This document shows positions 3,978-54,611 of a stretch of DNA of 64,000 bases, in pieces (position 1 is the first letter of the stretch; every line of letters starts with the position of its first letter). Both the position numbers and the translations under genes were made by a program. The DNA lies in contig DP000238.1 of NCBI GenBank assembly GCA_000200715.1, positions 1,018,593 to 1,082,592 of the forward strand. The letters run 5' to 3'. The DNA is from Cenarchaeum symbiosum A. Its GTDB lineage: Archaea > Thermoproteota > Nitrososphaeria > Nitrososphaerales > Nitrosopumilaceae. The notes below the pieces were generated by a model that saw only the letters and a program-made list of their open reading frames with translations, had not been told where the DNA came from and made no database searches.

Positions 3978-4213
3978 TACACGGCAGGCCCCGGCGGCGA
4001 ATTTATGAACCTTTGTATGGCAGATCGCACGAATCTTGCCCCGCGCAGGCCCTGTTTGCACATACTATGCCCCCCCGGCCCTTTCCGCACCGCCAGGGCC
4101 CGTGAGAATCTGCCGGCGCCAAGGGATGGCGGCTCGGGCGCGGCCTTGACAGAAGACTCCTGTCTGCGCGCCTTTGCCGAATATTATTATACCATTGTAT
4201 TCATTAACGGTAT

Positions 4214-5344: not shown

Positions 5345-5620
5345 CGCTGTTGAAAATATCTCCGGTGCGGGGATTATCTTCACAGGACACAGTATCCATG
5401 TATTAGATTTTGCCGGGGGCAGGGGCCTGGGGTGACATGGCGGAAAACCGGGGCCCGCAGGCAGGGCGGATGATACCCCACAGGTGCCATGTGCGGAACA
5501 GGCGCCCATATGCAGGCCCCCCCGGCAGGGCCGTCTAGACACGGCTGGCAGGGCTTTAGGGCCGGTTCTTTCAGCCGGATCCGCCTATCTTTAAATAATG
5601 AAAACACACTCACTGAAAAC

Positions 5621-6802: not shown

Positions 6803-7296
6803 GGCTGCCCGAGGGCCTCCGCGAGGGGCTCAGGGAGCCGATGGGCACGCTCATACTGGATTCCATGGTGAATAAAGAGGCGGTTCTGCGCGAGGCGCCC
6901 CCGGGCACTATACTGGTTACAGTGGGCGATGTCACATCCGAGAGAATCTCCGGGTTCGGGATGACCCCGCTGCTCCAGATAATAGACGGCAAGACCAGAA
7001 GGGCCGCGCATGAACCAGCAGGCCCCCCGCCGGATGTCGAGATCATCCGGTGTGAGAACCCCGCCGGCGGGATAAGCCCCGAATGTATAGAGACAATCCG
7101 CAGGGCCCTCGGGTCATCATCCCCGCTGCGGCTCGTGGTCAGCGGCGAGGAGGACCTCTTGGTCATTCCCGCGTGTATATACGCGCCAGACGGGGCGGTG
7201 ATAATGTACGGGCAGCCCGGCCGCGGCCTGGTCGCCATCCACGTGGATGCGGGGATCAGATATAAGGCCAAAGGCCTGCTCGATTCGGTGTCATGA
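6799..7296 (+). CDS. GTP-dependent dephospho-CoA kinase (DUF359)
   Basis: 165 aa. Archaeal DUF359 proteins phosphorylate dephospho-CoA with GTP, the last step of CoA synthesis. The start is TTG 6799, inside the end of the mrp gene (TTTGA). It gives 'MRLPEGLREGLREPMGTLI', the expected N-terminus of this family, so a later ATG at 6841 would lose conserved sequence. 'VTVGDVTSERI' (about 40-50) and 'IDGKTRR' (about 63-69) match the conserved GD and DxKxxR nucleotide-site motifs. It is translationally coupled to mrp. Confidence 0.88.
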   Translation: MRLPEGLREGLREPMGTLILDSMVNKEAVLREAPPGTILVTVGDVTSERISGFGMTPLLQIIDGKTRRAAHEPAGPPPDVEIIRCENPAGGISPECIETIRRALGSSSPLRLVVSGEEDLLVIPACIYAPDGAVIMYGQPGRGLVAIHVDAGIRYKAKGLLDSVS

Positions 7297-7297
7297 C

Positions 7298-7355
7298 GGG
7301 GCGTGATGAGACGGTGGCTGTATGATATATGATTTGGCCTAAACATTCTGACCCC
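7298..7355 (+). ncRNA. Candidate C/D box sRNA (2'-O-methylation guide)
   Basis: A perfect C box GTGATGA (7303-7309) and D box CTGA (7348-7351) are 38 nt apart. They are flanked by GGGG (7298-7301) and CCCC (7352-7355), which can form the terminal stem of an archaeal C/D sRNA. The size, about 58 nt, fits. The internal boxes are degenerate (CTGT as D', ATATGAT as C'). It begins two bases after the dephospho-CoA kinase stop. The guide candidate is the stretch just before the D box (7335-7347). No rRNA target was tested. Confidence 0.4.
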
Positions 7356-7425
7356 TTTAGAATAGACAAGGGTCCGGACAACTCTTGACAACCCCAGATA
7401 AATCCCGGCGCGTACAACACACCCC

Positions 7426-7803
7426 ATGAGGCTGGACCCGGAGATGCGGCTTGGCATACTCGAAAAGATAGGCGTCTATTCCGAGAGGTTCTCGATACCC
7501 GAGCCGCGCGTCCTGCTGACTACTCGCGAGGTGCTCGAGATGCCAAAAGAGGCGACTGCCGGCCGCCGCACGTCTGCATACAAGTACTATGGGGTGTCGT
7601 ACCTGCGCCACAACGCGGTATTCATCAACGTCAGAAAGATCCCCGATGAAAAAGAGCTCGAAAAGACCATAGTGCACGAGCTCATCCACATGCGCTTCCA
7701 GTACCTGGGGCACGGCAGGCGCTTCAACCGGCTGGTCCGGCGCGGCCTGCGCGGGGGCGGCTTTGCCCCGTACAAGAGAAGAACGGCCCCCGCAGCCATT
7801 TAG
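7426..7803 (+). CDS. SprT-like zinc metallopeptidase
   Basis: 125 aa. The motif 'TIVHELIHMRFQYLGHGRRF' (about 84-103) gives HExxH plus a later GH, the zincin arrangement of SprT/WSS1-like proteins. These often act on DNA-bound or damaged proteins, but the role here is unknown. The N-terminal half has no clear domain. The start ATG 7426 has an ATAAAT box about 30 nt upstream. hppA follows 35 nt later with its own TATA box. Confidence 0.75.
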   Translation: MRLDPEMRLGILEKIGVYSERFSIPEPRVLLTTREVLEMPKEATAGRRTSAYKYYGVSYLRHNAVFINVRKIPDEKELEKTIVHELIHMRFQYLGHGRRFNRLVRRGLRGGGFAPYKRRTAPAAI

Positions 7804-7838
7804 GGTTTATATTTACGCCCACAGGCGGGCAGCCGTAT

Positions 7839-9878
7839 ATGGCCGGAGAGGAGATACTGCCCATAGGGGCCGGCATCGCCTCGTTTGTGGTGGCGGCAGG
7901 GCTGGCTGCGTGGATAACTAGGCACCCGCCCGGCACGAAAGAGCAGATGGAGATATCCGAGGCCGTAAGGGTCGGCGCATCGGCGTTCCTGAAGAGGGAG
8001 ATGAAGGTTATAGTGCCCGTAGCCGTCGGGCTCGCAGTAATCATAGGCGCATTTTTGCAGCCATCAAACGGGATAGCCTTTGCCGTGGGGGCGACGCTCT
8101 CTGCGGTGGCGGGGCTGATATCCCTAAAGATAACGGTAAAGGCAGCCGTGCGCGCGGCCAATCTGAGCAGCAAGGGGCTCGGCAAGACCTTTGCAATGGC
8201 GTTCCGGGGCGGGGCAACAGTGGGCCTTGCAGTCCCCGCGATGGCGCTGCTGGCGATAACTGGCCTGTACATGATATACCCGGATCCCATATCGATAGCA
8301 GGAGTCGGGATAGGGGCCAGCCTGATAGCCCTGTTCATAAGGATAGGCGGCGGCATATTCACAAAGGCGGCAGACATGGGGGCGGACCTTGTGGGAAAAG
8401 TAGAGGCCAACATACCAGAAGACGACCCTAGAAACCCCGCAACCATAGCGGACAACGTAGGGGACAATGTCGGGGATGCTGCAGGCATGGGCTCTGACGT
8501 GTACGAATCATACATCGTGACCATTCTTGCGGCCCTTCTCATAGCCGCCCTGATAGGAGCTCCAGAACTGCTGATGTTCCCGGTCATGGTGGGGGCGGCA
8601 GGCATGCTCGCCTCGATAGTGGGCGTGGTCATAGTGGGCTCCGGCGAGACCAAAGACGTGATGAGGCCGCTCAACCGCTCGTTCTATGTATCCGCGGGGA
8701 TAGCAGTAGGCCTCAATCTGGCATTTACGATAATATTCCTGGGCGAGAGCGCGTCTGCGTACTCCCTGTTCGGCTCGACCCTGATAGGGGTGGCCCTTGT
8801 GCCCGTCATACAGCGCATAACAGATAGGTATACAAACCACAAGTACGGCCCGGTAAACGAGATAGCAGAATCGGCAAAGTGGGGCTATGCGTCCCTTACC
8901 CTCATGGGGATAATCAAGGGACTGCAGTCGACGGGCCCCTTTATGATAGCGCTGGTCACGGCGATAATCGCGTCATACGCGCTGGGCTCCTCGTTTGCCC
9001 CAGAGGGCGCGGACCCTGTGCTCTACGGGATATTCGGAACGGCCATGACCGCCATGGCGATGCTGAGCCTGGCGGGGATAGTCCTCAGCATAGACGCCTT
9101 TGGGCCCATAGCGGACAACGCGGGCGGCATAGTAGAGATGACAGGCATGGGCGAGGAGAGCCGCAAGGTGACCGACGAGATAGATGCAGTAGGCAATACA
9201 ACAAAGGCAGTCACCAAGGGCTTTGCAATAGCTAGCGCGGCGCTTGCGGCACTTGCCATGATCCAGGCGTTCCAGTTCGAGGCGGCGCACATATTCGAGG
9301 GCGTTTTAGAGCTTGATTACAGCCTGACAAACCCCGCGGTCATAACGGGCCTGCTTGTCGGCGGCCTGCTCCCGTTTATAATAACAGGCCAGCTGATAAG
9401 CGGCGTATCGAGGGCCGCCATGAAGATGGTCGACGAGGTAAGGCGGCAGTTCAAGGCGGAACCCGGCATACTCACCGGCGAGACAAAGCCCGACTATGCG
9501 CGGTGCGTGGACATTGCCACTGTCGCGTCGATAAAAGAGCTCTGGAAGTCTGCAGTAATAGCCATAACGGCGCCGATAATACTGGGCATACTGCTGGGCC
9601 CTACCGCTGTGGCGGGCCTGCTCATGGGCTCGGTAGTAACAGGGATATTTCTCGCGTACCACCTTGCAAATACCGGCGGCGCCTGGGACAATGCGAAAAA
9701 GCTCGTCGAGATGAGGGGCGAGAAGGGCAGCGAGATACACAAGGTTACAGTAGTCGGCGACATAATAGGCGACCCCTACAAGGATACAGCAGGGCCTGCG
9801 CTCAACACTGTAATCAAGCTGCTAAATACTATAGCCATAGTGTTCGTCTCGGCGTTTGTATCAGTCCTGGTACTCTAG
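7839..9878 (+). CDS. hppA: Membrane-bound proton-translocating pyrophosphatase (K+-independent type)
   Basis: 679 aa, many membrane helices. It couples PPi hydrolysis to H+ pumping. The catalytic loops are visible: 'DVYESY', 'ADMGADLVGKVEANIPEDDPRNPA' region near residue 180, 'DNVGDNVGDAAGM' and, at the C-terminus, 'GDPYKDTAGPALN'. The diagnostic segment reads 'AVGNTTKAVTKG'. Lys after GNTT marks the K+-independent H+-pumping subclass; K+-dependent enzymes have Ala there. TTTATATTT lies about 28 nt before ATG 7839. The pump recovers energy from PPi made by biosynthesis. Confidence 0.96.
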   Translation: MAGEEILPIGAGIASFVVAAGLAAWITRHPPGTKEQMEISEAVRVGASAFLKREMKVIVPVAVGLAVIIGAFLQPSNGIAFAVGATLSAVAGLISLKITVKAAVRAANLSSKGLGKTFAMAFRGGATVGLAVPAMALLAITGLYMIYPDPISIAGVGIGASLIALFIRIGGGIFTKAADMGADLVGKVEANIPEDDPRNPATIADNVGDNVGDAAGMGSDVYESYIVTILAALLIAALIGAPELLMFPVMVGAAGMLASIVGVVIVGSGETKDVMRPLNRSFYVSAGIAVGLNLAFTIIFLGESASAYSLFGSTLIGVALVPVIQRITDRYTNHKYGPVNEIAESAKWGYASLTLMGIIKGLQSTGPFMIALVTAIIASYALGSSFAPEGADPVLYGIFGTAMTAMAMLSLAGIVLSIDAFGPIADNAGGIVEMTGMGEESRKVTDEIDAVGNTTKAVTKGFAIASAALAALAMIQAFQFEAAHIFEGVLELDYSLTNPAVITGLLVGGLLPFIITGQLISGVSRAAMKMVDEVRRQFKAEPGILTGETKPDYARCVDIATVASIKELWKSAVIAITAPIILGILLGPTAVAGLLMGSVVTGIFLAYHLANTGGAWDNAKKLVEMRGEKGSEIHKVTVVGDIIGDPYKDTAGPALNTVIKLLNTIAIVFVSAFVSVLVL

Positions 9879-10060
9879 TCTGCGCCCTTTACTAGCATCA
9901 TATCGAGCTCGTCTATCTGTTCTAGCACGGCCTTTCTGAGCGCGGTATTGTGCTCGGGGCAGAACTTGAAGTAATCATCTTCGGTAAGAAAGCACCCGCA
10001 GATCCACCGGGTCTTTTTGTCGCCCTCGACAGTAAGGCGGGAGTAGGGATGCCCGTCCAT
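9875..10060 (-). CDS. Small hypothetical protein with Cys-rich motif
   Basis: 61 aa, not a family I recognise. It has 'WICGCFL' (19-25) and 'FCPEHN' (33-38), a CxC...CPEH set that could bind one metal ion. The C-terminal half is a helix of Leu/Glu/Asp. ACTTTTTAGG lies about 27 nt before ATG 10060 on the minus strand, supporting a leaderless gene. It overlaps the hppA stop by 4 bp, tail to tail. Confidence 0.65.
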   Translation of the reverse strand: MDGHPYSRLTVEGDKKTRWICGCFLTEDDYFKFCPEHNTALRKAVLEQIDELDMMLVKGAD

Positions 10061-10120
10061 ACAGGCGGCAACGCGGCGGCGCCTAAAAAGTCATAGCATG
10101 AGAAAAAAAGGGATGGCGCC

Positions 10121-10378
10121 CTAGGGGCAGCCTTCCATCTTTTGTATGTAATAGCCGTCCTTCTCGATCGCCTGTGTGACCGGGGCCGGGGCATCCTGCG
10201 AGTGGCAGAACTGGCACTCGTTCTGGGTCATTGTTGCGCTACCTTCGCCTATGGTCTCTAGCCACTGCTTGCCGAACTCGATCGCCTTTGCATGGTCTTT
10301 TTCGCCTGTGATGACGTCAAAGTGCATCGTGCGCCCGTCGCCGGCCTTGACGTAGGTGTCGTACACGTGAATCTCCAT
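10121..10378 (-). CDS. DUF2024 family protein
   Basis: 85 aa. It begins 'MEIHVYDTYVKAGDGRTMHFDV', the DUF2024 signature, and has the conserved 'NECQFCHSQDAP' Cys/His block near residue 55. The function of the family is unknown. The frame is open to 10435, but the family start and the CATATTTAATCC-type box 25 nt upstream place the start at ATG 10378. Monocistronic; divergent from the CNNM gene. Confidence 0.82.
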   Translation of the reverse strand: MEIHVYDTYVKAGDGRTMHFDVITGEKDHAKAIEFGKQWLETIGEGSATMTQNECQFCHSQDAPAPVTQAIEKDGYYIQKMEGCP

Positions 10379-10538
10379 GGTATAGAGCAGGCAGAGGCCA
10401 TATTTAATCCAAATCGGGCGGATCACGGGCCGCAAAATCCTTAAAAATCATACCGGCCTATGTATGAGCAGCCCGGAATGGTGAATACGCAAGTAAAATG
10501 AGCAACAGCCCCACGGCACGCACCCTGCGGGGGTCCCG

Positions 10539-11795
10539 ATGGTAGATCTCTGGGTCGAGTTCCTATCACTGGCGGTCCTCATAGGCCTCTCGGGCTTTTT
10601 CAGCGGCCTCGAGGTGGCCTTGGTTGGAACCCGCAGCTCAAAGGTCAGGCAGCTCCTCAAGGACGGCACAAAGGGGGCGGCCGCCCTGCACAGGCTCAAG
10701 TCTAACCCCGGCTGGATGATGTCGAGTGTAAACCTGGGCAACAACCTGGTCAATGTTGGCTCTGCCGCCCTGGCAACCAGCATAGCCCTGCGCACGTTTG
10801 GCGACGACGGGCTCGGCATAGCAGTCGGCGTGATGACCTTTCTGATACTTGTGTTCGGCGAGATAACCCCAAAGACCTACTGCAATGCAAATGCCGTGGC
10901 CATATCGCTCCGCTTTGCGCCCGTGTTGATTGCGTTTGGGTACGCGCTCTGGCCGGTGGTCAAGGTATTCGAGTACATAACAAGGGGCATGGTGAAGCTT
11001 ACCGGTAGCAGCTATTACGCGCCGCCTATAACAGAGGACGAGATCAGGGGGGTGGTCGAGCAGGGCCTTGCCGACAAGGCAATAGAGGAGGAAGAAGGCG
11101 AGCTTGTGCACGGGGCCCTTGGATTCGATGATACTATAATCCGGGCGGTGATGACCCCCCGGACCAGGATGTTCACGCTAAATGCAAAGATGCTACTCTT
11201 CGAGGCGCTGCCGCTGATAAACCAGAGGGGCCACTCGAGAATACCCATACTCGGCGAGGGGGGAAACGAGATAGTCGGCTTTGTCCATGCAGGAGATATC
11301 CTCAAGGAGCTAGAACATGACAAGAGGGTGGTCACCCTCGAGCAGATTGCGCGAAAGCCGGTCTTTGTATCCCAGGAAAAGCGCGTCTCGTCTTTACTCA
11401 AGGAGATGCAGGGCAGAAAGGTGCACATGGCGATGGTCATAGACGAGCACGGGGGGATAGTGGGCCTGGTCACCCTCGAGGACCTGCTCGAAGAGATAGT
11501 GGGCGAGATAGAAGACGAGACCGACAAGACCCGCCCGCAGGAATACCACAGCATAGACCGCGATACTATAATCACCAGCGGGGACATAGAGATAAACAGG
11601 ATAAACGAGATCTTCAAGGCAGACGTGCCCGAGGGCGAAGACTATGCGTCCCTGTCGGGCCTACTCCATGAGAGGCTGCACGACATACCCCAGGAGGGCG
11701 ACAAGGTGGAGGTGGGCTCGCTCCGCATAATCGTAGAAGAGGTCAAAAAGAACGTGCCAAAAAAGGTCCGCATAGAGCGGATAAGGCGCGCATAG
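10539..11795 (+). CDS. CNNM/CorC-type transmembrane CBS-domain protein
   Basis: 418 aa. Layout: CNNM (DUF21) membrane domain with about four helices (residues 5-165; 'GFFSGLEVALVG', 'NNLVNVGSAALATS', 'GEITPKTY'), tandem CBS pair (about 205-325; 'VMTPRTRMF', 'EHGGIVGLVTLEDLLEEIVGEI'), and CorC_HlyC domain at the C-terminus ('GLLHERLHDIPQEGDKVEVG'). Relatives export Mg2+/Co2+ or Na+. TTAAAAATC at about 10440 would give a 5' leader of about 70 nt, unusual here where most genes are leaderless; two tiny ORFs lie in that leader. Confidence 0.88.
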   Translation: MVDLWVEFLSLAVLIGLSGFFSGLEVALVGTRSSKVRQLLKDGTKGAAALHRLKSNPGWMMSSVNLGNNLVNVGSAALATSIALRTFGDDGLGIAVGVMTFLILVFGEITPKTYCNANAVAISLRFAPVLIAFGYALWPVVKVFEYITRGMVKLTGSSYYAPPITEDEIRGVVEQGLADKAIEEEEGELVHGALGFDDTIIRAVMTPRTRMFTLNAKMLLFEALPLINQRGHSRIPILGEGGNEIVGFVHAGDILKELEHDKRVVTLEQIARKPVFVSQEKRVSSLLKEMQGRKVHMAMVIDEHGGIVGLVTLEDLLEEIVGEIEDETDKTRPQEYHSIDRDTIITSGDIEINRINEIFKADVPEGEDYASLSGLLHERLHDIPQEGDKVEVGSLRIIVEEVKKNVPKKVRIERIRRA

Positions 11796-19423: not shown

Positions 19424-20380
19424 ATGGGCATAGCAGAGTGCAGGGACAAGGTGCTCGGCGGCGGGGAGCTTACAAAAGACGAGGCCCGGGGCCTGATGGA
19501 GGCAGATGTTACAGAGCTGGCGGCTGCGGCAGACGAGATCACGCGCCGCTTCAACGGGGACGGCGTGGATGTAGAGCAGCTGAATAACATAAAGAGGGAC
19601 GGGTGCAGCGAGGACTGTACTTTTTGCGGCCAGTCGGCGTTCTATGATGCGGACAAGGAGCCGCACCCGCTGCCGGAACCAGAAGAGGTGGTCCGCGCCG
19701 CGCTCAAGGCGAAAAAAGAGGAGGCCTCGTCATACTGTTTGGTGGCCGCATGGAGGGAGCCCACCCCCGAGGGGTTTGAAAAGGTCTGTACCATAATACA
19801 AGAGATCAATACACACGTGGGGATATCAGTAGAGTGCAGCTTGGGGTTTCTCACAAGGGAGAGGGCGGCGCGCCTCAAGGGGCTGGGCGTCAAAAGATAC
19901 AACCACAATCTTGAGACGGCGCGCTCCAAATTTCCCGAGATATGCAGCACCCACACGTACGAAGACAGGCTGGACACGCTGGAGATAGCCCGGGAGGCGG
20001 GGCTCGAGCTGTGCACCGGGGGGATAATCGGCATGGGGGAGAGCAGGGGGCAGAGAATAGAGCTGGCCATGGAGCTTGCCCGGATACGCCCAGAGGAGGC
20101 GACGGTAAACATCCTTGTGCCCGTGCAGGGGACCCCGATGGAGCTGCAAGCCCCGCTGCCGCCGGGCGAGGCGGAGAGGTTTTTTGCGCTTGTGCGCTTT
20201 TTGCTGCCGCGCTCGGTAGTCAAGATATCAGGCGGCAGGGAAAAGGCCCTTGATGATGACGGCAGGGCGATACTCCGGGGCGGGGCCAACGGGATAATCA
20301 CGTCGGGCTACCTGACCATGGGCGGCAACGATTCATCTGCCGACATGGAGATGATAAGGGAAGCCGGGCTTGAGGCATAG
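19424..20380 (+). CDS. bioB: Biotin synthase
   Basis: 318 aa. A radical SAM enzyme that inserts sulfur into dethiobiotin. The SAM cluster motif 'GCSEDCTFCGQS' (about 65-76) gives CxxxCxxC. The second-cluster residues appear as 'SYCLVAAWREP', 'SVECSLGFLT' and the late Arg. 'YNHNLETAR' is highly typical of BioB. It has its own promoter below the BirA-type operator and overlaps the bioF start by 11 bp, so bioB and bioF are cotranscribed. Confidence 0.96.
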   Translation: MGIAECRDKVLGGGELTKDEARGLMEADVTELAAAADEITRRFNGDGVDVEQLNNIKRDGCSEDCTFCGQSAFYDADKEPHPLPEPEEVVRAALKAKKEEASSYCLVAAWREPTPEGFEKVCTIIQEINTHVGISVECSLGFLTRERAARLKGLGVKRYNHNLETARSKFPEICSTHTYEDRLDTLEIAREAGLELCTGGIIGMGESRGQRIELAMELARIRPEEATVNILVPVQGTPMELQAPLPPGEAERFFALVRFLLPRSVVKISGGREKALDDDGRAILRGGANGIITSGYLTMGGNDSSADMEMIREAGLEA

Positions 20381-21491
20381 CCCTGCGGATGCAAAGCTTG
20401 CCCGGATACGCCGCGAGGGGCTGTACAGGAGGCTCACACCGGGGATTATACGCGGTGCATACATTGTCGTGCGGAACAGGAAACTGCTCAACTTATGCTC
20501 AAATGACTATCTTGGGCTTGCTTCGCGCGGCCCCGTTCCGGGGCAGCCGCAGGCAAGCTCCCGGCTTGTATCGGGGAGCGACCCCGCGCATACAACGCTA
20601 GAAAAGGCCCTTGCAAGGCACGCAGGTACAGGTGCTGCCCTGCTGTACCCTACCGGATACATGGCCAATCTGGGGGCAATACAGGCATTAGTGCGAAAAG
20701 GCGACCGCATATTTTCCGACGAGCTTAATCATGCGAGCATCATAGACGCGTGCGCGCTCTCCGGGGGGAGGGTCTCCGTATACGCCCATAACGACATGGA
20801 TGAGCTGCGGCGCATGCTAAAGAGATGCAGGGGCAGGGCCCACGTGATAACCGAGGGGGTATTCAGCATGGACGGCGATATGGCAAAGCTGATAGAGATA
20901 ACGGAGCTCGCACGGGGCAGAGCATCGGTCATACTTGATGATGCACACGGGGACTTTGTGTGCGGGAGGAGCGGCCGGGGCACAGCGGAGCTTCTCGGGG
21001 TACGCGGGAAAGTAGACGTGTATACTAGCAGCCTCAGCAAGGGCCTCGGGTCCTTTGGCGGGTATATGGCTGCCGGCAGGGATGATGTCAAGCTGTGCAT
21101 TAACGGCTCTAGGGCGTTTATCTATACGTCCGCGCTGCCTGCGCATATAGCCCGCGATGCCCTGCGGAGGATATCTGCTGATGCGGAGCCCAGGAGGCGC
21201 AAACTCGCAGAGAACGCCCGGAGGCTCTCAGAAGGGCTGCTAGATGCAGGTTTTAGGGCTGGCTCTGACTCCCACATAATACCTGTCCACGTAGGCGGCG
21301 AGCGCGCCGCTGTAGAGCTAGGTAGGCAGCTGGCCCGCGAGGGCGTCTTTGCGCAGCCGGTCAGGTATCCAAGCGTCCCGAGGGGCAAGGCCCGGATCCG
21401 CATATCGGCGACGGCTCGGCTGACCAAGGGTCATGTCGAGGGTGCGCTTGAAGCGTTTGGGCGCGCAGGGCGGCGCCTCGGCCTGGTATAG
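20370..21491 (+). CDS. bioF: 8-amino-7-oxononanoate synthase
   Basis: 373 aa from TTG 20370, inside the bioB end. A PLP alpha-oxoamine synthase that joins pimeloyl-CoA/ACP and alanine. Motifs: 'NLCSNDYLGLAS' (about 41-52), 'DELNHASIIDA', 'LDDAHGDFVCG' and the PLP lysine in 'SSLSKGLGSFGGY' (about residue 225). With bioD, bioA and bioB it completes the four late steps. No pimelate-forming gene (bioC, bioH, bioW, bioI) is in the window. Confidence 0.94.
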   Translation: MRHSPADAKLARIRREGLYRRLTPGIIRGAYIVVRNRKLLNLCSNDYLGLASRGPVPGQPQASSRLVSGSDPAHTTLEKALARHAGTGAALLYPTGYMANLGAIQALVRKGDRIFSDELNHASIIDACALSGGRVSVYAHNDMDELRRMLKRCRGRAHVITEGVFSMDGDMAKLIEITELARGRASVILDDAHGDFVCGRSGRGTAELLGVRGKVDVYTSSLSKGLGSFGGYMAAGRDDVKLCINGSRAFIYTSALPAHIARDALRRISADAEPRRRKLAENARRLSEGLLDAGFRAGSDSHIIPVHVGGERAAVELGRQLAREGVFAQPVRYPSVPRGKARIRISATARLTKGHVEGALEAFGRAGRRLGLV

Positions 21492-44878: not shown

Positions 44879-46543
44879 TCACATGGTTGCCTGTGCGGCT
44901 TCGTGATACATCTCGCTCTTTGCACAGCCGGCGGCCAGCTCGTCGCCGGCGCCGCGCCTCATCAGCCCGCGGTAAAGACCGTCCTCGAGCTTTACGCCCT
45001 CGCGCTCCTCCCACTCTTCGACAGTGGTAGAGTATTTCTTCTGGATCCTGTCGCGGTACCATTCGGGTATCACATTGAATGCACAGAATGGTATGACCCT
45101 CAGGTCGGGCGTAAGATAGTGTATGTCGCATCTCTGGAGCCTCTCTAGATCCTCATTGTACTTGTCCTGAAAATGCATCATGCCCAAGAATAATCCCTTT
45201 ACGTGCCATGAGCCGACAGAGCCAAATGATCTCTTCATCAGGATATTCCCGAACATCTTTGCGAGATCGAGGCCGGCTGGCTGCTTTTTCGCATCTACAA
45301 AGCTCTTTAGCTTTCTGACGACTTCTAACATTGTAAAGTACTTGTTCTTGCCGGAGCGGATCTCTTCGGACTTGTCCTCGAATAGCTCCAGCATGCCCTG
45401 TATGTCACAGAATTTGGTCAGGGGGACGAACTTTTTGGTCTCGGCATCCTCGAAGATGTACGTGCCAGCACCGCATGCAAAGTGTATTGACAGCTCGTAT
45501 TTCGGCTTGCTGGAGAATGCCTCTATCACGTTGGTAAGGGGCATGCAGCTCGGTACTGGGAACCAGTCGTCGATAGTCACTTCACCGTTGGTCTGCTCTT
45601 CGATCCTCTGTATACAGTCGGGGATGGTAATCCTGAACTTTTCGCGCTCTTGCTTGCCCATTCTTCCTGTCAGGGATACGGGCTGGAAGTTGACCGCGTG
45701 GACTACATCCAGGTTCTTTTGTGCATATCGGATAATTCCGCCGAGTTCGTGGTCGTTTATCGATTTTATTACGGTCGGTACGAATACTACTGTCGTCCCC
45801 GTCTTGCGACAGCTGTCCAATGCATGGGGGATCTCCCAGTGGTTCTTTGGGTTGGTCCGTGCGGTCACACCGTCAAAGCTGAGGTACAGATTGTTGCACC
45901 CTGCAAGGCGCACATCGCGTGCCGCTTCCGGATCCATTGCGTGCCGTATACCGTTTGTATTCATCTGGATATGGTCTACGCCTTCTTCCTTCATTATCTT
46001 GATTATATCGGTAATATCGGTGCGAAGCATCGGCTCGCCGCCTGTAATCTGTATAGAGTTGCCGGCGATAGGCCTCTCTGAACGGAGGGTCTTCATCATG
46101 GCCCTTACTTGATCTAGGGAAGGCTCGTACATGTAGGCGCCCTCGAGGCCTTTCTTTACGTAAAAGAAACAGTACCAGCAGGTAAGATCGCATCTGTTAG
46201 TCACTATCATGTTGGCAAGGCCGCTGTGGGAAAGGTGGTTTGTGCATAACCCGCAGTTGTTGGGGCAGGCACACTTGTCTACCATTACGTTTGGTGCGTG
46301 TGCGCCCTTGCCGTCCTGCCAGTAGGTACTGAACTTTTGATATAATTCGTATGATCCATAATACAGCTCCTCGCACTCGCCGTGAGTGGGGCATGTCTTT
46401 GTCATGGATACCTTGCCGTCGCGCTCGAATATCTCTGCGTCGAGGATCATGTTACAGTCGGGGCAGATGCTCTGGGTAAACCTGATCGTGGACTTTTTGC
46501 CCAGATTCTTTGGTGCCTGGTTGGTTATCTGTATCAGAGCCAT
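44879..46543 (-). CDS. tes: Tetraether lipid synthase (Tes) family radical SAM protein, copy 1
   Basis: 554 aa from ATG 46543. Tes joins two diether lipids tail to tail to make membrane-spanning GDGT lipids. Cys blocks: CPDC (27-30), CPTHGEC (51-57), CACPNNCGLC (91-100), the radical SAM triad 'TNRCDLTCWYC' (Cys 118, 122, 125) and 'ITGGEP' (166-171). 'VNFQPVSLTGRMG' and 'DDWFPVPSC' are typical of Tes. The extra cluster cysteines and length match the family. TATATAATA lies about 25-30 nt upstream. The protein is identical to that of copy 2 at 52881, but the DNA has many silent differences. Confidence 0.85.
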   Translation of the reverse strand: MALIQITNQAPKNLGKKSTIRFTQSICPDCNMILDAEIFERDGKVSMTKTCPTHGECEELYYGSYELYQKFSTYWQDGKGAHAPNVMVDKCACPNNCGLCTNHLSHSGLANMIVTNRCDLTCWYCFFYVKKGLEGAYMYEPSLDQVRAMMKTLRSERPIAGNSIQITGGEPMLRTDITDIIKIMKEEGVDHIQMNTNGIRHAMDPEAARDVRLAGCNNLYLSFDGVTARTNPKNHWEIPHALDSCRKTGTTVVFVPTVIKSINDHELGGIIRYAQKNLDVVHAVNFQPVSLTGRMGKQEREKFRITIPDCIQRIEEQTNGEVTIDDWFPVPSCMPLTNVIEAFSSKPKYELSIHFACGAGTYIFEDAETKKFVPLTKFCDIQGMLELFEDKSEEIRSGKNKYFTMLEVVRKLKSFVDAKKQPAGLDLAKMFGNILMKRSFGSVGSWHVKGLFLGMMHFQDKYNEDLERLQRCDIHYLTPDLRVIPFCAFNVIPEWYRDRIQKKYSTTVEEWEEREGVKLEDGLYRGLMRRGAGDELAAGCAKSEMYHEAAQATM

Positions 46544-46565
46544 CCTATATCGTCCCGTCCGAGAT

Positions 46566-46577
46566 AGTATATAATAC
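46566..46577 (-). promoter_or_regulatory. TATA box of tes copy 1
   Basis: AGTATATAATAC on the plus strand, 23-34 nt before the ATG at 46543, repeated with one change before copy 2 (about 54568-54579). The stretch from here to the ATG is otherwise the same in both copies. Confidence 0.6.
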
Positions 46578-46609
46578 ATTACCACCCCATACAAGTTGGA
46601 AAATCTGTA

Positions 46610-47093
46610 ATGTGCGGATTTTACGCGTGGGTATACAGGTTTCAGGCACGGGCTTTACCGGGGGACTCTATCCCCAGTCCGGGCGATCAGACTGGAATCC
46701 CCTGTAGGTTTGAATGCAGGGCCTGATCAATTCAGGAAGCATTTACGGCCCTGGCAAGTTAATCCGACTTCTAGGCCCGTTGGTTAGTGGCGCTCATTAC
46801 TGCAGATATGGAATCAGATCTCCCAAATCTGGCCCTCTGGACCACCCTACACACTGGTCCCCGTGTGCCCCTGCCCAGTATCAAGATCGACCAGACCCTT
46901 TGGACTGCTTTTCTCTAGTCTAGAGGGATCCCGGGAGCTGAGGGCGAATGGGGAATAGTCATGGTCGGTGCCCGTCAAAAACGACATTGGTCCCGGACCT
47001 TGCATGAGGGCTGAGACATCTCCGCCCGTAGGAACAACAGGTATGCCTGCGGCCGTCTTGGCTTTTTACCTCTGGAGGCGGTATTTGCTCTAT
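46610..47093. other. Intergenic region between tes copy 1 and the Type ISP gene
   Basis: About 480 nt with no convincing gene, tRNA or repeat. The first 60 nt loosely resemble the flank of tes copy 2 (both contain TTCAGGCACG). Plus-strand frames here lack start signals and motifs. It marks the left junction of the restriction-modification segment. Confidence 0.4.
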
Positions 47094-50000
47094 TCATGCA
47101 GGTATGACCCTTCCATGGCAGGCCTTGCACGAACTGGTTAAGGTGAGGGGGTCCAGTACCACAATTATGTCATTATAGTCTCGATAATACACTGTAGCAT
47201 TTCGGGCCCGGTTGCCGTCCTGGTCCTTTTTGTCAAGCTTTGGGTTCCTGACCAGAATGGTTATAACCACGGGGGTACGAGAGCCAGAACCGAATATTTT
47301 ACCACCCTCTTCGTCAGATTCTTTACCCTGAACACCCACCTGCCTTCCCCGCAGATCAAAACACCATACCTCATTGAACTCTTTTTTTAGACATACACGA
47401 AGTCCAGCTGCACTACTATTTCGTAGAAATCCCGCATTGGTGACAAATGCTATCACGCCTGCATTTCCTATACGGTCACTGGCCCAGCGAATTGAACGAA
47501 TGTAAGAATCAAACAGCGAGTTGATGTTTCCACCTTCCGGGTATTTTCTCTTGAATTCCATTGCATACGTATCCTTTATTCTAGCATCAATTAATGGATA
47601 TTTTGCATTTTCGTTTGCAAATGAATATGGAGGATTCCCCATTATCACATGTATATGCTGCATATTTATTTTCTGTATATTTTCATTTATCTCCTCCATC
47701 TTGCCGGCGAGCTTGATTATCTTTCCACGCTTGGATTTGTCCACCCTCTGCGTAGGATGGTGCGTCAGAGTATCCGTATAATTGATGCTTTCAAATGACA
47801 CATGTCCACCGTTCCTTATCGAGGCATATGTAGACTCTATATTCACGGAAGCAACATAGTACGCCAGCAATGAGAGCTCGTTGACCCAGATGTCATGCTT
47901 GTACTTGCGGTACAATTTCTCCTTGCCTATGAGGCCCGATTCGAGGAGATGTGTTACAAACGCCCCAGTTCCGGTAAATGGGTCAAACACCTTGACTGAC
48001 GTGTCTGTCAGACTCGACTTGAAGTGGTGTTTTAGGACATCCTGTACGCTGTGTATGATGAAGTCAATAACCTCGTCAGGTGTATACACTATGCCGTTCC
48101 TGCTCTGGTTGTCAGGATCGAACCCCTCTAGAAAACTCCCGTATATCTTCTTAATTAACTCCTGTTTGCCCTTTACAGTTCTGAAATTGGACATCTCATT
48201 TCGGGTTTCCTTGTAGAATCTCTCGAAGTCCTCGAGCTCGTATGTCAAACCTATCTTTCTCATGGCTGCATCCAAGGCAGACGCTACCGGATTTGATGAT
48301 CGGAACTCCTCTGCGAACAGGACGTTAAACACCTCGGAGAGAGCCTTGTGCTGTGCTAGCACTTTGACGGTCTCCTTTTCATCCACCGAATCATTGACCA
48401 CTTTTTTGAGATCCAGACACAGCTCATCCACCGTTCCGACCACATTTTTGTTCCCCCTATCATAGGCCCTTTGGATTACCTCGGCCATGCCCTTTGCTGT
48501 CTTGCCGAGCTTCCGGGCCTTGAGCTCAAAATATTGTCGATGGCTGTTGACCTCGATGAGCTTGGTGGCGACCGTCCGTGCGAGCACGGGGGTCATGCCC
48601 TCGCCCCTGTCCCCCTTGTAAATTATCTCCACACATCCGGGAAGCAGGCCGTCCGGTCCCTCTGGAGTCTCACCGTTGCCATCCACGGCCAGACGGTTTA
48701 TTTCTGCCACCAGGTTCTTGTCGTGGGACTGTAGGGCCTTGATCACCTGCCAGACGGTCTTCCACTTGGCCTCGTCCTCCATCGATTGTGCGAGTGTCAT
48801 GTCTCTTCTTAATATTATTGGCAGTATGATGTAGCCGTATTCCTTCTCGTCTCCGGCCCTTCGCATGACCCGTCCGACACTCTGTATCACGTCAACCTTG
48901 GACTTGCGAGGTTTGAGGAATATTATCCCGTCCAAGTTGGGCACGTCTACCCCTTCCGAGAGACACTTGGCATTGGATAGTATTCTACACGTCTCCGGAT
49001 CGGACCCGCTGTCCCCCAGCCAGTCCAATTTGGCTGCCCGCACGCCAGATCTCATGGTGCCATCTATATGGCGCACCTGTACCCCGTTGAACTTTCCCTT
49101 CTTCGCCAGATTACGGAGTTTTGGCAGTCTCGATACAGTTCTGTTAAAACTCCTGTCGACGGTCCTGTCTATTATCTCCTTGTCGTCCTCGTCCTGGGTC
49201 CTGTCATCCTCCTTGTATTTGCCGGCAAACTCCTGTGATGCCTTTATCCTGTCGGTAAATGCGATGACACGCTGGAGCATTTTTTTCTGCCGCTCGTTGT
49301 CATAATTGAGTCCCTTCCATACCGAACCAAAGAGTATTCTCTCATCTAGTCTACCCTCTTCATCTATCGCGTTATCTTCACCGTCCGCCAGCTCCTCCTC
49401 GCGCAGTATGGGGACGCGTATCTTGTATTCGGTAAGAAGTCCCTTTGCCACAGCCTCGCCAAACGTGAACTCATGGAAAAGAGGTCCGTACGACTCCTCA
49501 TCATCCATTGAAAAGACGTCTTTCTCACTCCGTATTTTTTCCCCATAGATCCTCTCTGTGGCGGTCATGTACAGACGCTTTGCGCTTTGTACATGTTCAT
49601 CCTTGTGGGCCATTATGAAAGGAGAATCCTTCTCATTCCCCTCTATCCCAGTGGTACGGTGTGCCTCGTCACAAAGTATGAGGTCAAATTTTTTGCCTTC
49701 CATTGCCTTGGAAACCTGTTCTATCGACTGGTACGTGGAGAACACCACACACATGGATTTTAGAGGCTTTTCGTACATTATCTTCTTTATCTCATCCTTG
49801 TCGGTCGTGGGCGGAAATGGCACCTCGATGACACTTCCTTCGTCACCTGAACTCTTGTCAGAACACACCACACAATAGTGGTGTCCCATCTTGGCATTCT
49901 CGGACCACTCTCTGATGGTCTGCCGTATCAGCGATATAGAGGGCACAAGATATAATGCATATCCATTACCCACTATTTTCTCGGCTATACGGAGTGATGT

Positions 50001-50621
50001 GAGTGTCTTACCGGTACCACATGCCATTATCATCTTGCCCCGATTGCTCCTCTTGAATCCATCCATCACATTATCCATGGCACCTAGCTGGTGCGGGTAC
50101 AGCTCCTTGACCGGCTTTACGTGCCACTTGGGATACATCGACCAGTCTATTGAGCTTGACCTGAATACGTCTCGCCCCATGAGATAGCACTTATGGTATT
50201 TCAGCTTGGATTCAGCCTCCCGGGTTATCCTATGGGTCGTATATGCGAACAGCGTGTTGACGGTTCTCTTGTGTTTTTTTTCCAGGCTAGTAGCCTTGGA
50301 TAGAAACTTGCTCACATCACTATCATCAACGGTGCTGCTCTTGTCCTTGTCATAAAACTTGCATTGTATGGCACACCACTCTCCGTTATGCTCTACTGCC
50401 ATGAGGTCGATACCTGTTAGGCGGTCATCTTTCCTATCCGGCCACTTGTTCCACATATGCACCTCCTTGAACCTCTTGGCGAACTGCCTGTCCTTGAGCA
50501 GGAATTCTCTGGTTAGTTTCTCAAATTTGGCCCCCTTTACGGTGGTGCTTTTTGATGTCTTATCGATATAGTCTAACACGTCATCAAAGGTCTGTATGGT
50601 CTTTATCTCGACTGTAGTCAT
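47094..50621 (-). CDS. Type ISP restriction-modification enzyme, nuclease-helicase-methyltransferase part
   Basis: 1175 aa from ATG 50621. Domains: Mrr-like nuclease (E34, 'TGIDLMA' D72, 'IQCK' Q86/K88); SF2 helicase with Walker A 'ACGTGKT' (200-206), DEAH, 'MTATE' and 'QSVGRVMRR'; N6-adenine methyltransferase motif I 'DPFTGTGAF' (880-888) and motif IV 'NPPYS' (996-1000). Homology stops at 'VYYRD' (residue 1148); the last 27 residues are unrelated tail. Intact Type ISP enzymes continue for about 500 residues with the target-recognition domain; that part is at 50673-52247 on the other strand. Without it the protein should lack sequence specificity. The promoter lies within the inverted segment. 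Confidence 0.9.
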   Translation of the reverse strand: MTTVEIKTIQTFDDVLDYIDKTSKSTTVKGAKFEKLTREFLLKDRQFAKRFKEVHMWNKWPDRKDDRLTGIDLMAVEHNGEWCAIQCKFYDKDKSSTVDDSDVSKFLSKATSLEKKHKRTVNTLFAYTTHRITREAESKLKYHKCYLMGRDVFRSSSIDWSMYPKWHVKPVKELYPHQLGAMDNVMDGFKRSNRGKMIMACGTGKTLTSLRIAEKIVGNGYALYLVPSISLIRQTIREWSENAKMGHHYCVVCSDKSSGDEGSVIEVPFPPTTDKDEIKKIMYEKPLKSMCVVFSTYQSIEQVSKAMEGKKFDLILCDEAHRTTGIEGNEKDSPFIMAHKDEHVQSAKRLYMTATERIYGEKIRSEKDVFSMDDEESYGPLFHEFTFGEAVAKGLLTEYKIRVPILREEELADGEDNAIDEEGRLDERILFGSVWKGLNYDNERQKKMLQRVIAFTDRIKASQEFAGKYKEDDRTQDEDDKEIIDRTVDRSFNRTVSRLPKLRNLAKKGKFNGVQVRHIDGTMRSGVRAAKLDWLGDSGSDPETCRILSNAKCLSEGVDVPNLDGIIFLKPRKSKVDVIQSVGRVMRRAGDEKEYGYIILPIILRRDMTLAQSMEDEAKWKTVWQVIKALQSHDKNLVAEINRLAVDGNGETPEGPDGLLPGCVEIIYKGDRGEGMTPVLARTVATKLIEVNSHRQYFELKARKLGKTAKGMAEVIQRAYDRGNKNVVGTVDELCLDLKKVVNDSVDEKETVKVLAQHKALSEVFNVLFAEEFRSSNPVASALDAAMRKIGLTYELEDFERFYKETRNEMSNFRTVKGKQELIKKIYGSFLEGFDPDNQSRNGIVYTPDEVIDFIIHSVQDVLKHHFKSSLTDTSVKVFDPFTGTGAFVTHLLESGLIGKEKLYRKYKHDIWVNELSLLAYYVASVNIESTYASIRNGGHVSFESINYTDTLTHHPTQRVDKSKRGKIIKLAGKMEEINENIQKINMQHIHVIMGNPPYSFANENAKYPLIDARIKDTYAMEFKRKYPEGGNINSLFDSYIRSIRWASDRIGNAGVIAFVTNAGFLRNSSAAGLRVCLKKEFNEVWCFDLRGRQVGVQGKESDEEGGKIFGSGSRTPVVITILVRNPKLDKKDQDGNRARNATVYYRDYNDIIVVLDPLTLTSSCKACHGRVIPA

Positions 50622-50672
50622 GCCCCCACCACCCTCATACAAATTATTCAAATTCCAGTTATTAAACGAGAC
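47178..50672. other. Apparent inverted segment splitting the Type ISP gene
   Basis: GTCTCG at 47178-47183 and CGAGAC at 50667-50672 are inverted copies, set in a weaker inverted context (GTCANNANN before GTCTCG on both arms, ACTG 7 nt after). Both encode R-D: '...VYYRD' in the minus-strand gene and '...KRDIGDSHDRDSK' on the plus strand. Flipping this 3495-bp segment joins codon 1148 of the first part to the second part in frame and restores an enzyme of about 1671 aa, close to the length of known Type ISP proteins. Confidence 0.8.
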
Positions 50673-52247
50673 ATTGGTGACTCACACGACAGGGATTCAA
50701 AGCTTGACATACTTCAAAAAATAAAATCACTATATGTGAAAAAATCCATTGAAGGGGTAGGCGACTGGAAGGTCATCGAGCCCGATGGCAAAGAGAACTG
50801 GATAAACCTACCAATAAACAATCCATACGTGCCAATGGGTAGCAAGGAGGCAAAGAAAGGCGCAAACGCCCATACCATCTTTAGTAAGTATTCTCTGGGG
50901 ATAGCAACACATCGTGACGCTTGGGTTTATAATTCATCTGATAAAGAGCTTGCCAAGAATATCAAGGTACATATCAAATATTGTAATGAGGAAGGACCTA
51001 CAAAACCCGACAAACCCAATCCAAAAAGAGGTAGCTGGAGTAGTGATTTAGATGGAAAATTGGAGAGATTGTCAAAGCAGGGTAAGAAAATGATATTTGA
51101 CGCAAAGAAAATACGAACCTCGTTATACAGGCCGTTTTTCAAACAACAATTATACTTTGACGACATATTGGTAACTGCCAGATATAAAATTGACGATTTT
51201 TATTCAAATAACGATACGGTTAATCCAGCAATAATTGTACCATATCATGTTAGTAAGCCATTTTCCACATTTATTACTTGTATAACCCCGGATTTGCAAA
51301 TAATCCAAAATGGACAATGCTTTCCACTCTATACATACAATGATGGGGTAAAAAAAAACAACATAACGGACTCTATCGTAAAAGAGTATCGTGAACATTA
51401 CAGAAATAACAACATATCCAAAGATGATATATTCTATTACGTGTATGCCATTCTCCATCATCCAAGATACAGGAACTATTTTAGAAATAATCTTATTCGT
51501 GATCTGCCCGGAATTCCAATGGCACCAGAGTTTGAGCGGTTCCAGAGGGCTGGCCGAGAACTCGCCAACATACATCTGAATTTTGATACGGGCAAAAGAT
51601 ACAGCTTAGGCAAACCAGCATTCCACCCCAAGGGCTTTATCAAGATCACGTTTGGCGGTAAGAATGAGGCTGACAAATCAATCATACGTGTAGACGGCCA
51701 TGAGTTATTCAATGGAGTGCCAATATCCAGTTATACGGTCAATGGTAGAACGCCTGTGGAATGGATAGCGGAGAGATTTGAAAAAAATAAGAAGATACCT
51801 AAAGATAAAAGTGGCAATTTCAATGACCCCTGTACGGGCACAGATATCGTAGCCGTTATCGAACGGGCCGTCTACGTGGGCCTTGAATCTGACCGCATAA
51901 TCAAGACCCTGCCAAAGGAGTTTGAGCCCAAGAACTGGAAGCCCAAGGCGGATCCAGCCAGCCTCGATGCATACAGTGAAAATGGCCAGAAGACCAGGGC
52001 ACGTCCTGCCAAAGAAACCCGCAAGAGTCGGTCCAAGTCGTATGATGTGCACGATAGCATGGTGAAACGAGCCCAAGACTTGCTGGTCGGGAACCATGTC
52101 CGCAAAAAATTCGACAAATATCAGGTCGTTGACAAAGAGAAAAAGTACATCATTGACGAAGATGACCTCCGCTGTGCCTGCCCGGTCTACAAAAAGTTCA
52201 ACGAATGTTCCCACGTATGGGCCGTCGAGCTATGCAGGAGAAAGTAG
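50673..52247 (+). pseudogene. Type ISP target-recognition part with C-terminal SWIM-like zinc motif (separated 3' half)
   Basis: 525 codons, open from the breakpoint to the stop; the first usable start inside is GTG 50736. The beginning 'GDSHDRDSKLDILQKIKSLY' and later 'RTSLYRPFFKQQLYFD', 'NGQCFPLYTY', 'ISKDDIFYYVYAILHHPRYR' and 'ELANIHLNFD' are the C-terminal target-recognition region of Type ISP enzymes. The end has 'CACPVYKKFNECSHVW', a CxC-x(n)-CxH SWIM zinc motif, not a usual part of these enzymes. No promoter of its own is seen, so it is probably silent in this orientation. It is AT-rich in its first two thirds. Confidence 0.8.
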
Positions 52248-52481
52248 CCTGCTACAGGGTAGCTGTCCAACATACGCAGGTACATCACCACCGTCTATGC
52301 CTCCGGCGCCGATAAATGATTGTGGGGCATCCCCCATAGGCGACTACACCGGGCGCGGACCAACGGTGGTCGAAGAGTTGCCAGGAACGCCGGCTCCGCG
52401 GCATTGAGACACGGGCCGTGGACTGGGTCCAAACAGAACGGGTCTGCCCGGTTTAAATATCATCATCACCGGTTGAGAACG
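52248..52481. other. Intergenic region after the Type ISP 3' half
   Basis: No gene seen. It ends with TTTAAATATC (52452-52461), the promoter of the small gene at 52482. Confidence 0.4.
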
Positions 52482-52586
52482 ATGAGTACGAATGGAATCA
52501 TAATAGTATGCGCGATCGCGGCAGTCATCATGTCTGCCAGTGCCCATGACGCAAATTCAGGCTATTTCCGCGACGCATCTGCCTGA
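52482..52586 (+). CDS. Small secreted or membrane protein (34 aa)
   Basis: 35 codons from ATG 52482 to TGA 52586. TTTAAATA at 52452-52459 lies about 25-28 nt upstream. After 'STNG' there is one hydrophobic helix (Ile/Val/Ala, about residues 6-20) ending 'SASAH', which looks like a signal-peptide cleavage site, then a 14-residue polar tail. If cleaved, a tiny peptide would be exported. It sits between the restriction-modification segment and tes copy 2. Confidence 0.55.
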   Translation: MSTNGIIIVCAIAAVIMSASAHDANSGYFRDASA

Positions 52587-52880
52587 CTTTTCACGAGTGG
52601 TAATACAGGCAGGAAGGGTGCCGGGGCATAATGGCGAGCCCCCTGTCCGATCTTTTCCACAGTACAAGGCTGTTTTCGGCCTTCTAGTTTGCCACCCCAC
52701 AGTGACTATAATGCCGCCCGACATTTGCAAGTGCATTGCGCCCCGGACGTACATAAAACCGCGGGACATTCCCGCGTTACGCTAGAATTTGGCGGCAATC
52801 GCCAAGGTACACGAAAACGCAGTCTTGCAGCAGGACAGGTTCTGGAAGATTGTGAATATTAGATTAAGGGTGCGGCCTGC
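52587..52880. other. Intergenic region before tes copy 2
   Basis: 294 nt. No gene, RNA or repeat is recognised. The stretch just before the tes stop has partial similarity to the region after copy 1. Confidence 0.4.
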
Positions 52881-54545
52881 TCACATGGTAGCCTGTGCGG
52901 CTTCGTGATACATCTCGCTCTTTGCACAGCCGGCGGCCAGCTCGTCTCCGGCGCCGCGCCTCATCAGCCCGCGGTACAGGCCGTCCTCGAGCTTTACGCC
53001 CTCGCGCTCCTCCCACTCTTCGACAGTGGTAGAGTATTTCTTCTGGATCCTGTCGCGGTACCATTCGGGTATCACATTGAATGCACAGAATGGTATGACC
53101 CTCAGGTCGGGAGTAAGATAGTGTATGTCGCATCTCTGGAGCCTCTCCAGGTCCTCGTTGTACTTGTCCTGGAAGTGCATCATGCCCAAGAATAATCCCT
53201 TTACGTGCCAAGAGCCGACAGATCCAAATGATCTCTTCATCAGGATATTCCCGAACATCTTTGCGAGATCAAGGCCGGCCGGCTGCTTTTTCGCATCTAC
53301 AAAGCTCTTTAGCTTTCGGACCACTTCTAACATTGTAAAGTACTTGTTCTTGCCGGAGCGGATCTCTTCGGACTTGTCCTCGAAGAGCTCCAGCATGCCC
53401 TGTATGTCGCAGAATTTGGTCAGGGGGACGAACTTTTTGGTCTCGGCATCCTCGAATATGTACGTGCCGGCACCGCATGCAAAGTGTATTGATAATTCGT
53501 ATTTCGGCTTGCTGGAGAATGCCTCTATCACGTTGGTAAGGGGCATGCAGCTCGGCACGGGGAACCAGTCGTCGATAGTCACCTCGCCGTTGGTCTGCTC
53601 TTCGATCCTCTGGATGCAATCCGGGATGGTAATCCTGAACTTTTCGCGCTCTTGCTTGCCCATTCTTCCTGTCAACGATACAGGCTGGAAGTTTACCGCG
53701 TGGACTACATCCAGGTTCTTTTGCGCATACCGGATGATCCCGCCTAGTTCGTGGTCGTTTATTGACTTTATCACAGTAGGTACGAATACTACGGTAGTAC
53801 CAGTCTTGCGACAGCTATCTAACGCATGGGGGATCTCCCAGTGGTTCTTTGGGTTGGTCCTAGCAGTCACGCCGTCAAAGCTGAGGTACAGGTTGTTGCA
53901 CCCTGCAAGGCGCACATCGCGTGCAGCTTCCGGGTCCATTGCGTGCCGTATACCGTTTGTATTCATCTGGATATGGTCCACGCCTTCTTCCTTCATTATC
54001 TTGATTATATCTGTAATATCGGTCCGGAGCATCGGCTCGCCTCCGGTAATCTGTATAGAGTTGCCCGCTATAGGCCTCTCTGAGCGGAGTGTCTTCATCA
54101 TGGCCCGCACCTGATCCAGGGAAGGCTCGTACATGTAGGCGCCCTCGAGGCCCTTTTTCACGTAAAAGAAGCAGTACCAGCAGGTAAGATCGCACCTGTT
54201 AGTAACAATCATGTTGGCCAGGCCGCTGTGAGATAGGTGGTTTGTACACAAGCCGCAGTTGTTGGGGCAGGCGCACTTGTCGACCATTACGTTTGGCGCG
54301 TGTGCGCCCTTGCCGTCCTGCCAGTATGTGCTGAACTTTTGGTATAACTCGTATGATCCATAATACAGCTCCTCGCATTCCCCGTGTGTCGGGCATGTCT
54401 TTGTCATCGATACTTTGCCGTCGCGCTCGAATATCTCTGCATCCAGTATCATGTTGCAGTCGGGGCAGATGCTCTGGGTAAACCTGATCGTTGATTTCTT
54501 GCCCAGATTTTTAGGTGCCTGGTTGGTTATCTGTATCAGTGCCAT
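52881..54545 (-). CDS. tes: Tetraether lipid synthase (Tes) family radical SAM protein, copy 2
   Basis: 554 aa from ATG 54545. The amino acid sequence is the same as copy 1 at 44879 in every block compared, with the three extra Cys clusters, the CxxxCxxC SAM motif (118-125) and GGEP. The DNA differs at many third positions (for example the codons for LTGR and DMQGM). No amino acid change with many silent changes means strong selection on both copies, or very biased conversion. A TrmB regulator gene is divergent from it, 169 nt away, and could control it. Confidence 0.85.
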   Translation of the reverse strand: MALIQITNQAPKNLGKKSTIRFTQSICPDCNMILDAEIFERDGKVSMTKTCPTHGECEELYYGSYELYQKFSTYWQDGKGAHAPNVMVDKCACPNNCGLCTNHLSHSGLANMIVTNRCDLTCWYCFFYVKKGLEGAYMYEPSLDQVRAMMKTLRSERPIAGNSIQITGGEPMLRTDITDIIKIMKEEGVDHIQMNTNGIRHAMDPEAARDVRLAGCNNLYLSFDGVTARTNPKNHWEIPHALDSCRKTGTTVVFVPTVIKSINDHELGGIIRYAQKNLDVVHAVNFQPVSLTGRMGKQEREKFRITIPDCIQRIEEQTNGEVTIDDWFPVPSCMPLTNVIEAFSSKPKYELSIHFACGAGTYIFEDAETKKFVPLTKFCDIQGMLELFEDKSEEIRSGKNKYFTMLEVVRKLKSFVDAKKQPAGLDLAKMFGNILMKRSFGSVGSWHVKGLFLGMMHFQDKYNEDLERLQRCDIHYLTPDLRVIPFCAFNVIPEWYRDRIQKKYSTTVEEWEEREGVKLEDGLYRGLMRRGAGDELAAGCAKSEMYHEAAQATM

Positions 54546-54611
54546 CCTATATCGTCCCGTCCGAGATAGTATATAATAGATTACCACCCCATACAAGTTG
54601 GAAAATCTGTA
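52881..54611 (-). repeat. Direct repeat, right copy (tes gene plus about 66 nt of promoter)
   Basis: Partner of 44879-46609, same orientation. The two copies flank about 6.3 kb holding the split Type ISP system and a small secreted-protein gene. Homologous recombination between them would delete that segment and leave one tes gene. Confidence 0.9.

Follow-up and report, generated by a model that had tools for sequence, protein, structure and literature searches.

In bacteria, phase variation of restriction systems is well established, and a recent review anticipates that archaea will extend the list of known phase-variable loci (PMC11868660). The Type ISP restriction-modification (R-M) enzymes LlaGI and LlaBIII have the domain order Mrr nuclease, helicase, coupler, N6-methyltransferase and target recognition domain (TRD), and the TRD core of LlaBIII begins at residue 1205 (PMC4872093). 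In Helicobacter pylori, the Type ISP genes HP0667-HP0669 and JHP0612-0613 are not expressed as one chain. HP0669, which comprises the methyltransferase and the specificity domain, has methyltransferase activity on its own, and correction of frameshifts is reported to yield an active methyltransferase (PMC3936762). Invertible Type I hsdS genes and shufflons are rearranged by inversion where the catalytic part meets the recognition part. In the literature searched, with most subscription journals outside its coverage, we found no paper in which Type ISP enzymes or thaumarchaeal R-M genes are switched by inversion or by repeats, and no report of phase-variable restriction in ammonia-oxidising archaea.

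The DNA analysed here (the window) is a 64-kb stretch of the Cenarchaeum symbiosum A genome, which consists of one contig of 2,045,086 bp. It carries a Type ISP gene that is split by an inversion, as a preliminary description of this DNA had proposed: the domains are distributed over two divergent ORFs, so that a single polypeptide is not encoded in the present orientation. The N-terminal part (47094-50651, minus strand, 1185 aa) has Pfam matches to Mrr_cat_2 (nuclease, residues 54-173, 50133-50492), ResIII (SF2 DEAD helicase, residues 183-365, 49557-50105), Helicase_C, ISP_coupler (residues 707-825, 48177-48533) and N6_Mtase (adenine methyltransferase, residues 830-1015, 47607-48164). Beyond the residues VYYRD, it runs on into 28 unrelated residues, which agrees with the earlier reading of its end. 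The C-terminal part (50664-52247, plus strand) lacks a start of its own at the joint and comprises the end of the methyltransferase part, the specificity domain and a SWIM-like tail. Its frame (50664-52244) is, as had been claimed, open back to a matching R-D, and the first common start codon past the joint is GTG at 50736. The specificity domain (Type_ISP_C, 50877-51794, 233.6 bits, E 4.4e-69) is the only match to this profile in the whole genome. Across the two parts, as in the joined protein, the order is nuclease, helicase, coupler, N6-methyltransferase and specificity domain, the order found in LlaGI and LlaBIII. The SWIM zinc-finger match in the C-terminal tail (52143-52235) is weak (E 0.0076, below the curated cut-off), and such a tail was not found in the aligned relatives.

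The inverted segment spans 3.5 kb (47178-50672) and is bounded by two inverted copies of CGAGAC, both of which were found where the preliminary description had placed them. One copy lies inside the R-D codons of the N-terminal part (47183-47178, minus strand), the other just upstream of the gene (50667-50672, plus strand). When the segment is flipped in silico, a stop-free frame results (47142-52244), which codes for a protein of 1672 aa from its ATG (1148 + 524 codons, exactly as predicted), with the joint between D1148 and I1149 (VYYRD followed by IGD). This protein has the expected size of a Type ISP enzyme. It is colinear with LlaBIII over residues 8-1539 of the latter (E 2e-198), and LlaGI is also matched; the comparison with both enzymes had been suggested beforehand. 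In contrast to LlaGI and LlaBIII, the restored protein has about 80-90 additional residues at its C-terminus, where the weak SWIM match is located, and its gene is split by the inversion. An intact archaeal relative (G006) aligns end-to-end with the joined protein at 45-47% identity, and in an alignment of nine proteins from the family the joint sits, gap-free, on a conserved Y-x-D-I-G motif. Residue 1142 of the joined protein pairs with LlaBIII residue 1155, which, with a TRD core from residue 1205 in LlaBIII, places the break some 40 residues ahead of that core, where the methyltransferase part ends. This is a small correction to the preliminary description, in which everything beyond the cut had been called the target-recognition part.

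The inversion is thus real in this sequence, and the exchange, at a word of 6 bp, was conservative and reciprocal. Two random breakpoints would share an in-register inverted identity of 6 bp or more with a frequency of about 0.0014. Weaker matches around CGAGAC had also been reported. These hold close to the word (16/26 positions for 10+6+10 bp, a value reached by a fraction of 0.014 of random inverted pairs that share a 6-mer) and are lost further out (19/36, 0.024; 21/46, 0.06; and, with flanks of 30 bp, 23/66, 0.34, which is not significant). The likeness fades within about 15 bp, and longer flanks are unlike. A 20-bp inverted pair nearby (47231-47250 and 50690-50709, 85% identical) was considered as the exchange site and rejected, its register being wrong for the restored frame.

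Relatives of this gene are broken or switchable in other ways. The specificity domain was found in 14 of 250 genomes of the family Nitrosopumilaceae that were drawn for the search, and seven Type ISP genes of the family carry long repeat tracts: (CA)21, (GA)13, (AG)21, (AC)12, G10, G10 and G18. These lengths are assembly values, many of them from metagenome bins, and their variation within populations is presumed. The tract is located at the frame break in six of the seven genes. In five of them, slippage over one or two units would toggle the gene between ON and OFF, while a sixth, incomplete gene would gain a longer frame. In two relatives the tract is at or near the joint at which the window gene is broken. 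The first has (CA)21 at the joint between methyltransferase and recognition parts (L138/L104, L138:7038) and is out of frame; a change of -2 or +1 units would give 1629 or 1631 codons. The second is the incomplete gene (L144/L032), the nuclease-helicase part of which was not matched there. Its (GA)13, read as (TC)13 at L144:7830, lies just after the same joint, and -1 or +2 would give 1057-1059 codons. Because these two relatives carry repeat tracts there, the position of the joint in the window may not be accidental. Another gene has (AG)21 inside the recognition domain (L143/L092, read as (CT)21 at L143:8287; -1 or +2 would give 1621-1623 codons), and one with (AC)12 (L142:9036) is ON now, with its frame broken by a change of one unit in either direction. 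Two genes from genomes of different genera have G10 near the same residues (about 214-227 of the query); both are out of frame, and -1 or +2 would give 1692-1693 codons in one (C10 at L145:12199) and 1558-1559 codons in the other (C10 at L017:10030). The remaining gene (L141) has G18 (L141:1459), G12 and G9 near residue 330, and a change in the G18 tract alone does not restore its frame. A further gene (L018) is interrupted by a 1.3-kb insertion carrying a transposase-like frame on the opposite strand, and two genes are intact (G006, L016; G561, L140). Among 82 loci from two collection scans, long in-gene repeats occur in three of the nine counted as archaeal versus three of the 73 others, those three all from Anaerobiospirillum. 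The tracts are candidate sites at which slippage would make an archaeal R-M enzyme phase-variable, and ON/OFF variation of this gene in the archaeal family is plausible, with repeat slippage as the mechanism in the observed cases. The gene in the window has no frame-setting tract, its only run being an in-frame A9 at 51350. The breaks differ in kind: frameshifts that are not caused by repeats in H. pylori, mostly repeat tracts in the archaeal relatives, and an inversion in the window. Two homopolymers elsewhere in the window are possible slippage sites, a C12 at 31299, where glycosyltransferase-like and epimerase-like frames meet, and an in-frame G12 at 42893 within a methyltransferase-like gene.

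Rearrangements at the same joint were also encountered in other genomes. In the relative G016, the Type ISP gene runs off the end of contig C4, and an orphan recognition part is found at the end of contig C2 (L014:1-1150, L015:1-4414). Around the joint, the two recognition parts are near-identical over about 190 bp and they are identical at the contig ends, while the core between is different; this looks like an exchange of recognition cassettes and is a candidate for one. Locus L080 of Parasutterella secunda comprises a full-length Type ISP gene (3832-8826, minus strand), a resolvase-family recombinase with an HTH_7 domain (8856-9455, minus strand) and an inverted partial copy comprising methyltransferase and recognition parts (9389-11476, plus strand). 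The inverted repeats have 85% identity over 715 bp and 73% over 714 bp. From its arrangement, this locus (3832-11476) is a candidate for a Type ISP enzyme with a specificity that is switched by inversion, and its layout matches that of invertible hsdS genes and shufflons. The window gene shares with the latter the inversion at the catalytic/recognition boundary but, unlike them, has no second recognition cassette, long inverted repeat or linked recombinase. In two bacterial loci (L064, 8514-11479; L088, 4281-10320), the enzyme is split near the joint with a YhcG/DUF1016-type or RhuM-type gene in between. The end of the methyltransferase part appears to be a recurrent site of rearrangement in archaeal and bacterial Type ISP enzymes. 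The viral contigs that were searched contain two distant Type ISP loci, neither being informative on the inversion. In one locus (L036), a second partial copy of the Type ISP C-terminus was observed 9 kb downstream (10901-11396 and 20045-20538, 89.5% identity). That contig is titled Gammaproteobacteria, its Type ISP gene is closest to archaeal ones, and it is possibly a mis-binned archaeal contig.

The R-M locus is flanked by two direct copies of a radical-SAM gene (44879-46609 and 52881-54611; 1731 bp, 93.6% identical, gap-free). Over 554 residues the two proteins do not differ; the 109 coding differences are all synonymous (5, 0 and 104 at the three codon positions) and get sparser towards the 3' end. 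Three relatives share the conserved neighbours of the copy at 52881; the additional copy is that at 44879, and most relatives have a single close match. In bacteria, some R-M genes are known to have been inserted together with long target duplications, and the two copies here may have arisen in this way.

In the present orientation, we infer that the gene is OFF, because the methyltransferase is severed from the recognition domain, so that the target would be neither modified nor restricted. The unit of methyltransferase and specificity domain, which is active in HP0669, is broken by the inversion, and therefore methylation as well as restriction would be lost at the target. The split enzyme could still be functional if both divergent parts were expressed and cooperated as separate subunits. 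The two bacterial loci in which the recognition part is a gene of its own, one gene away from the remainder (L064, MSKAKIYFHDIGDYL; L088, MSKANIYYHDIGDYL), offer a precedent, but their recognition gene starts before the IYYHDIGDYL strand. A start at GTG 50736 would drop 24 residues of this region, and the N-terminal part bears an unrelated 28-aa tail, so we consider cooperating subunits highly improbable. We also regard it as distinctly improbable that cloning is the source of the inversion, either within an insert or when clones were joined, with the archaeon itself having the joined gene. The genome was built from fosmids of an uncultured population, and the near-identical radical-SAM copies mark a spot at which the assembly could have erred. 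However, a 6-bp word is far too short for an overlap misassembly, and direct copies would yield deletions or duplications, not an inversion ending at CGAGAC.

The preliminary description had left the choice between an on/off switch and a one-time loss. A switch would require that a tyrosine recombinase from another place in the genome act on two short sites with a CGAGAC core, the joined orientation being ON. It would be in line with the exact reciprocal 6-bp exchange between slightly similar arms, with two undecayed halves and a start region that travels with the segment, with relatives that have this gene in phase-variable form and with the invertase-linked inverted copy in Parasutterella. 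The genome does code for two tyrosine recombinases (526 aa each), both more than 60 kb from the locus. No recombinase was found beside the locus, however, no serine recombinase in the genome and no long inverted repeat at the junctions, and the flanks (46595-47177 and 52245-52880) contain no remnant of a second recognition cassette. A genome-wide search for further copies of the junction site, with a pattern built from both junctions, returned only one match with two mismatches, in a ribosomal protein L13-like gene, which we take as chance, and a single orientation is on record, from one genome of the species. The programmed switch seems unlikely, and a loss fits at least as well. A single, microhomology-mediated, one-time inversion is rated most likely, at slightly better than an even chance. 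The Type ISP gene would have been an intact single-chain gene until a conservative 3.5-kb inversion, with one strand exchange at CGAGAC in the R-D codons and the other at the inverted CGAGAC just upstream of the gene. Such an inversion may have been tolerated or favoured because members of the family often do without this gene or switch it; relatives would switch or lose it via repeat slippage, insertion or cassette exchange. A one-time inversion is supported by the restored frame with its colinearity to intact relatives and LlaBIII, by the exact 6-bp microhomology with little likeness past about 15 bp, and by relatives with genes that are broken in several unrelated ways (insertion, out-of-frame tracts). 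Against it count the absence of decay in both halves over 1672 codons, which would suit a recent or a reversible event, the exactly reciprocal nature of the exchange, 10-bp flanks that are more alike than most chance pairs, and the coincidence of the joint with the repeat tracts of two relatives. The flip may be reversible.

It is tempting to combine both kinds of change and to speculate that Type ISP enzymes of ammonia-oxidising archaea are phase-variable, mostly by slippage in the helicase or at the methyltransferase/recognition joint, and here through inversion by a recombinase that acts on a 6-bp core in that joint, but this combination is unlikely. If the reading as an inversion switch were true, this would be an archaeal inversion switch within the coding frame of a single-chain R-M enzyme. 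The pattern in the relatives is the part most worth pursuing. A restriction gene that is switchable or broken in several related archaea would suggest that marine and sponge-associated archaea frequently have to balance defence against viruses with DNA exchange or self-damage.
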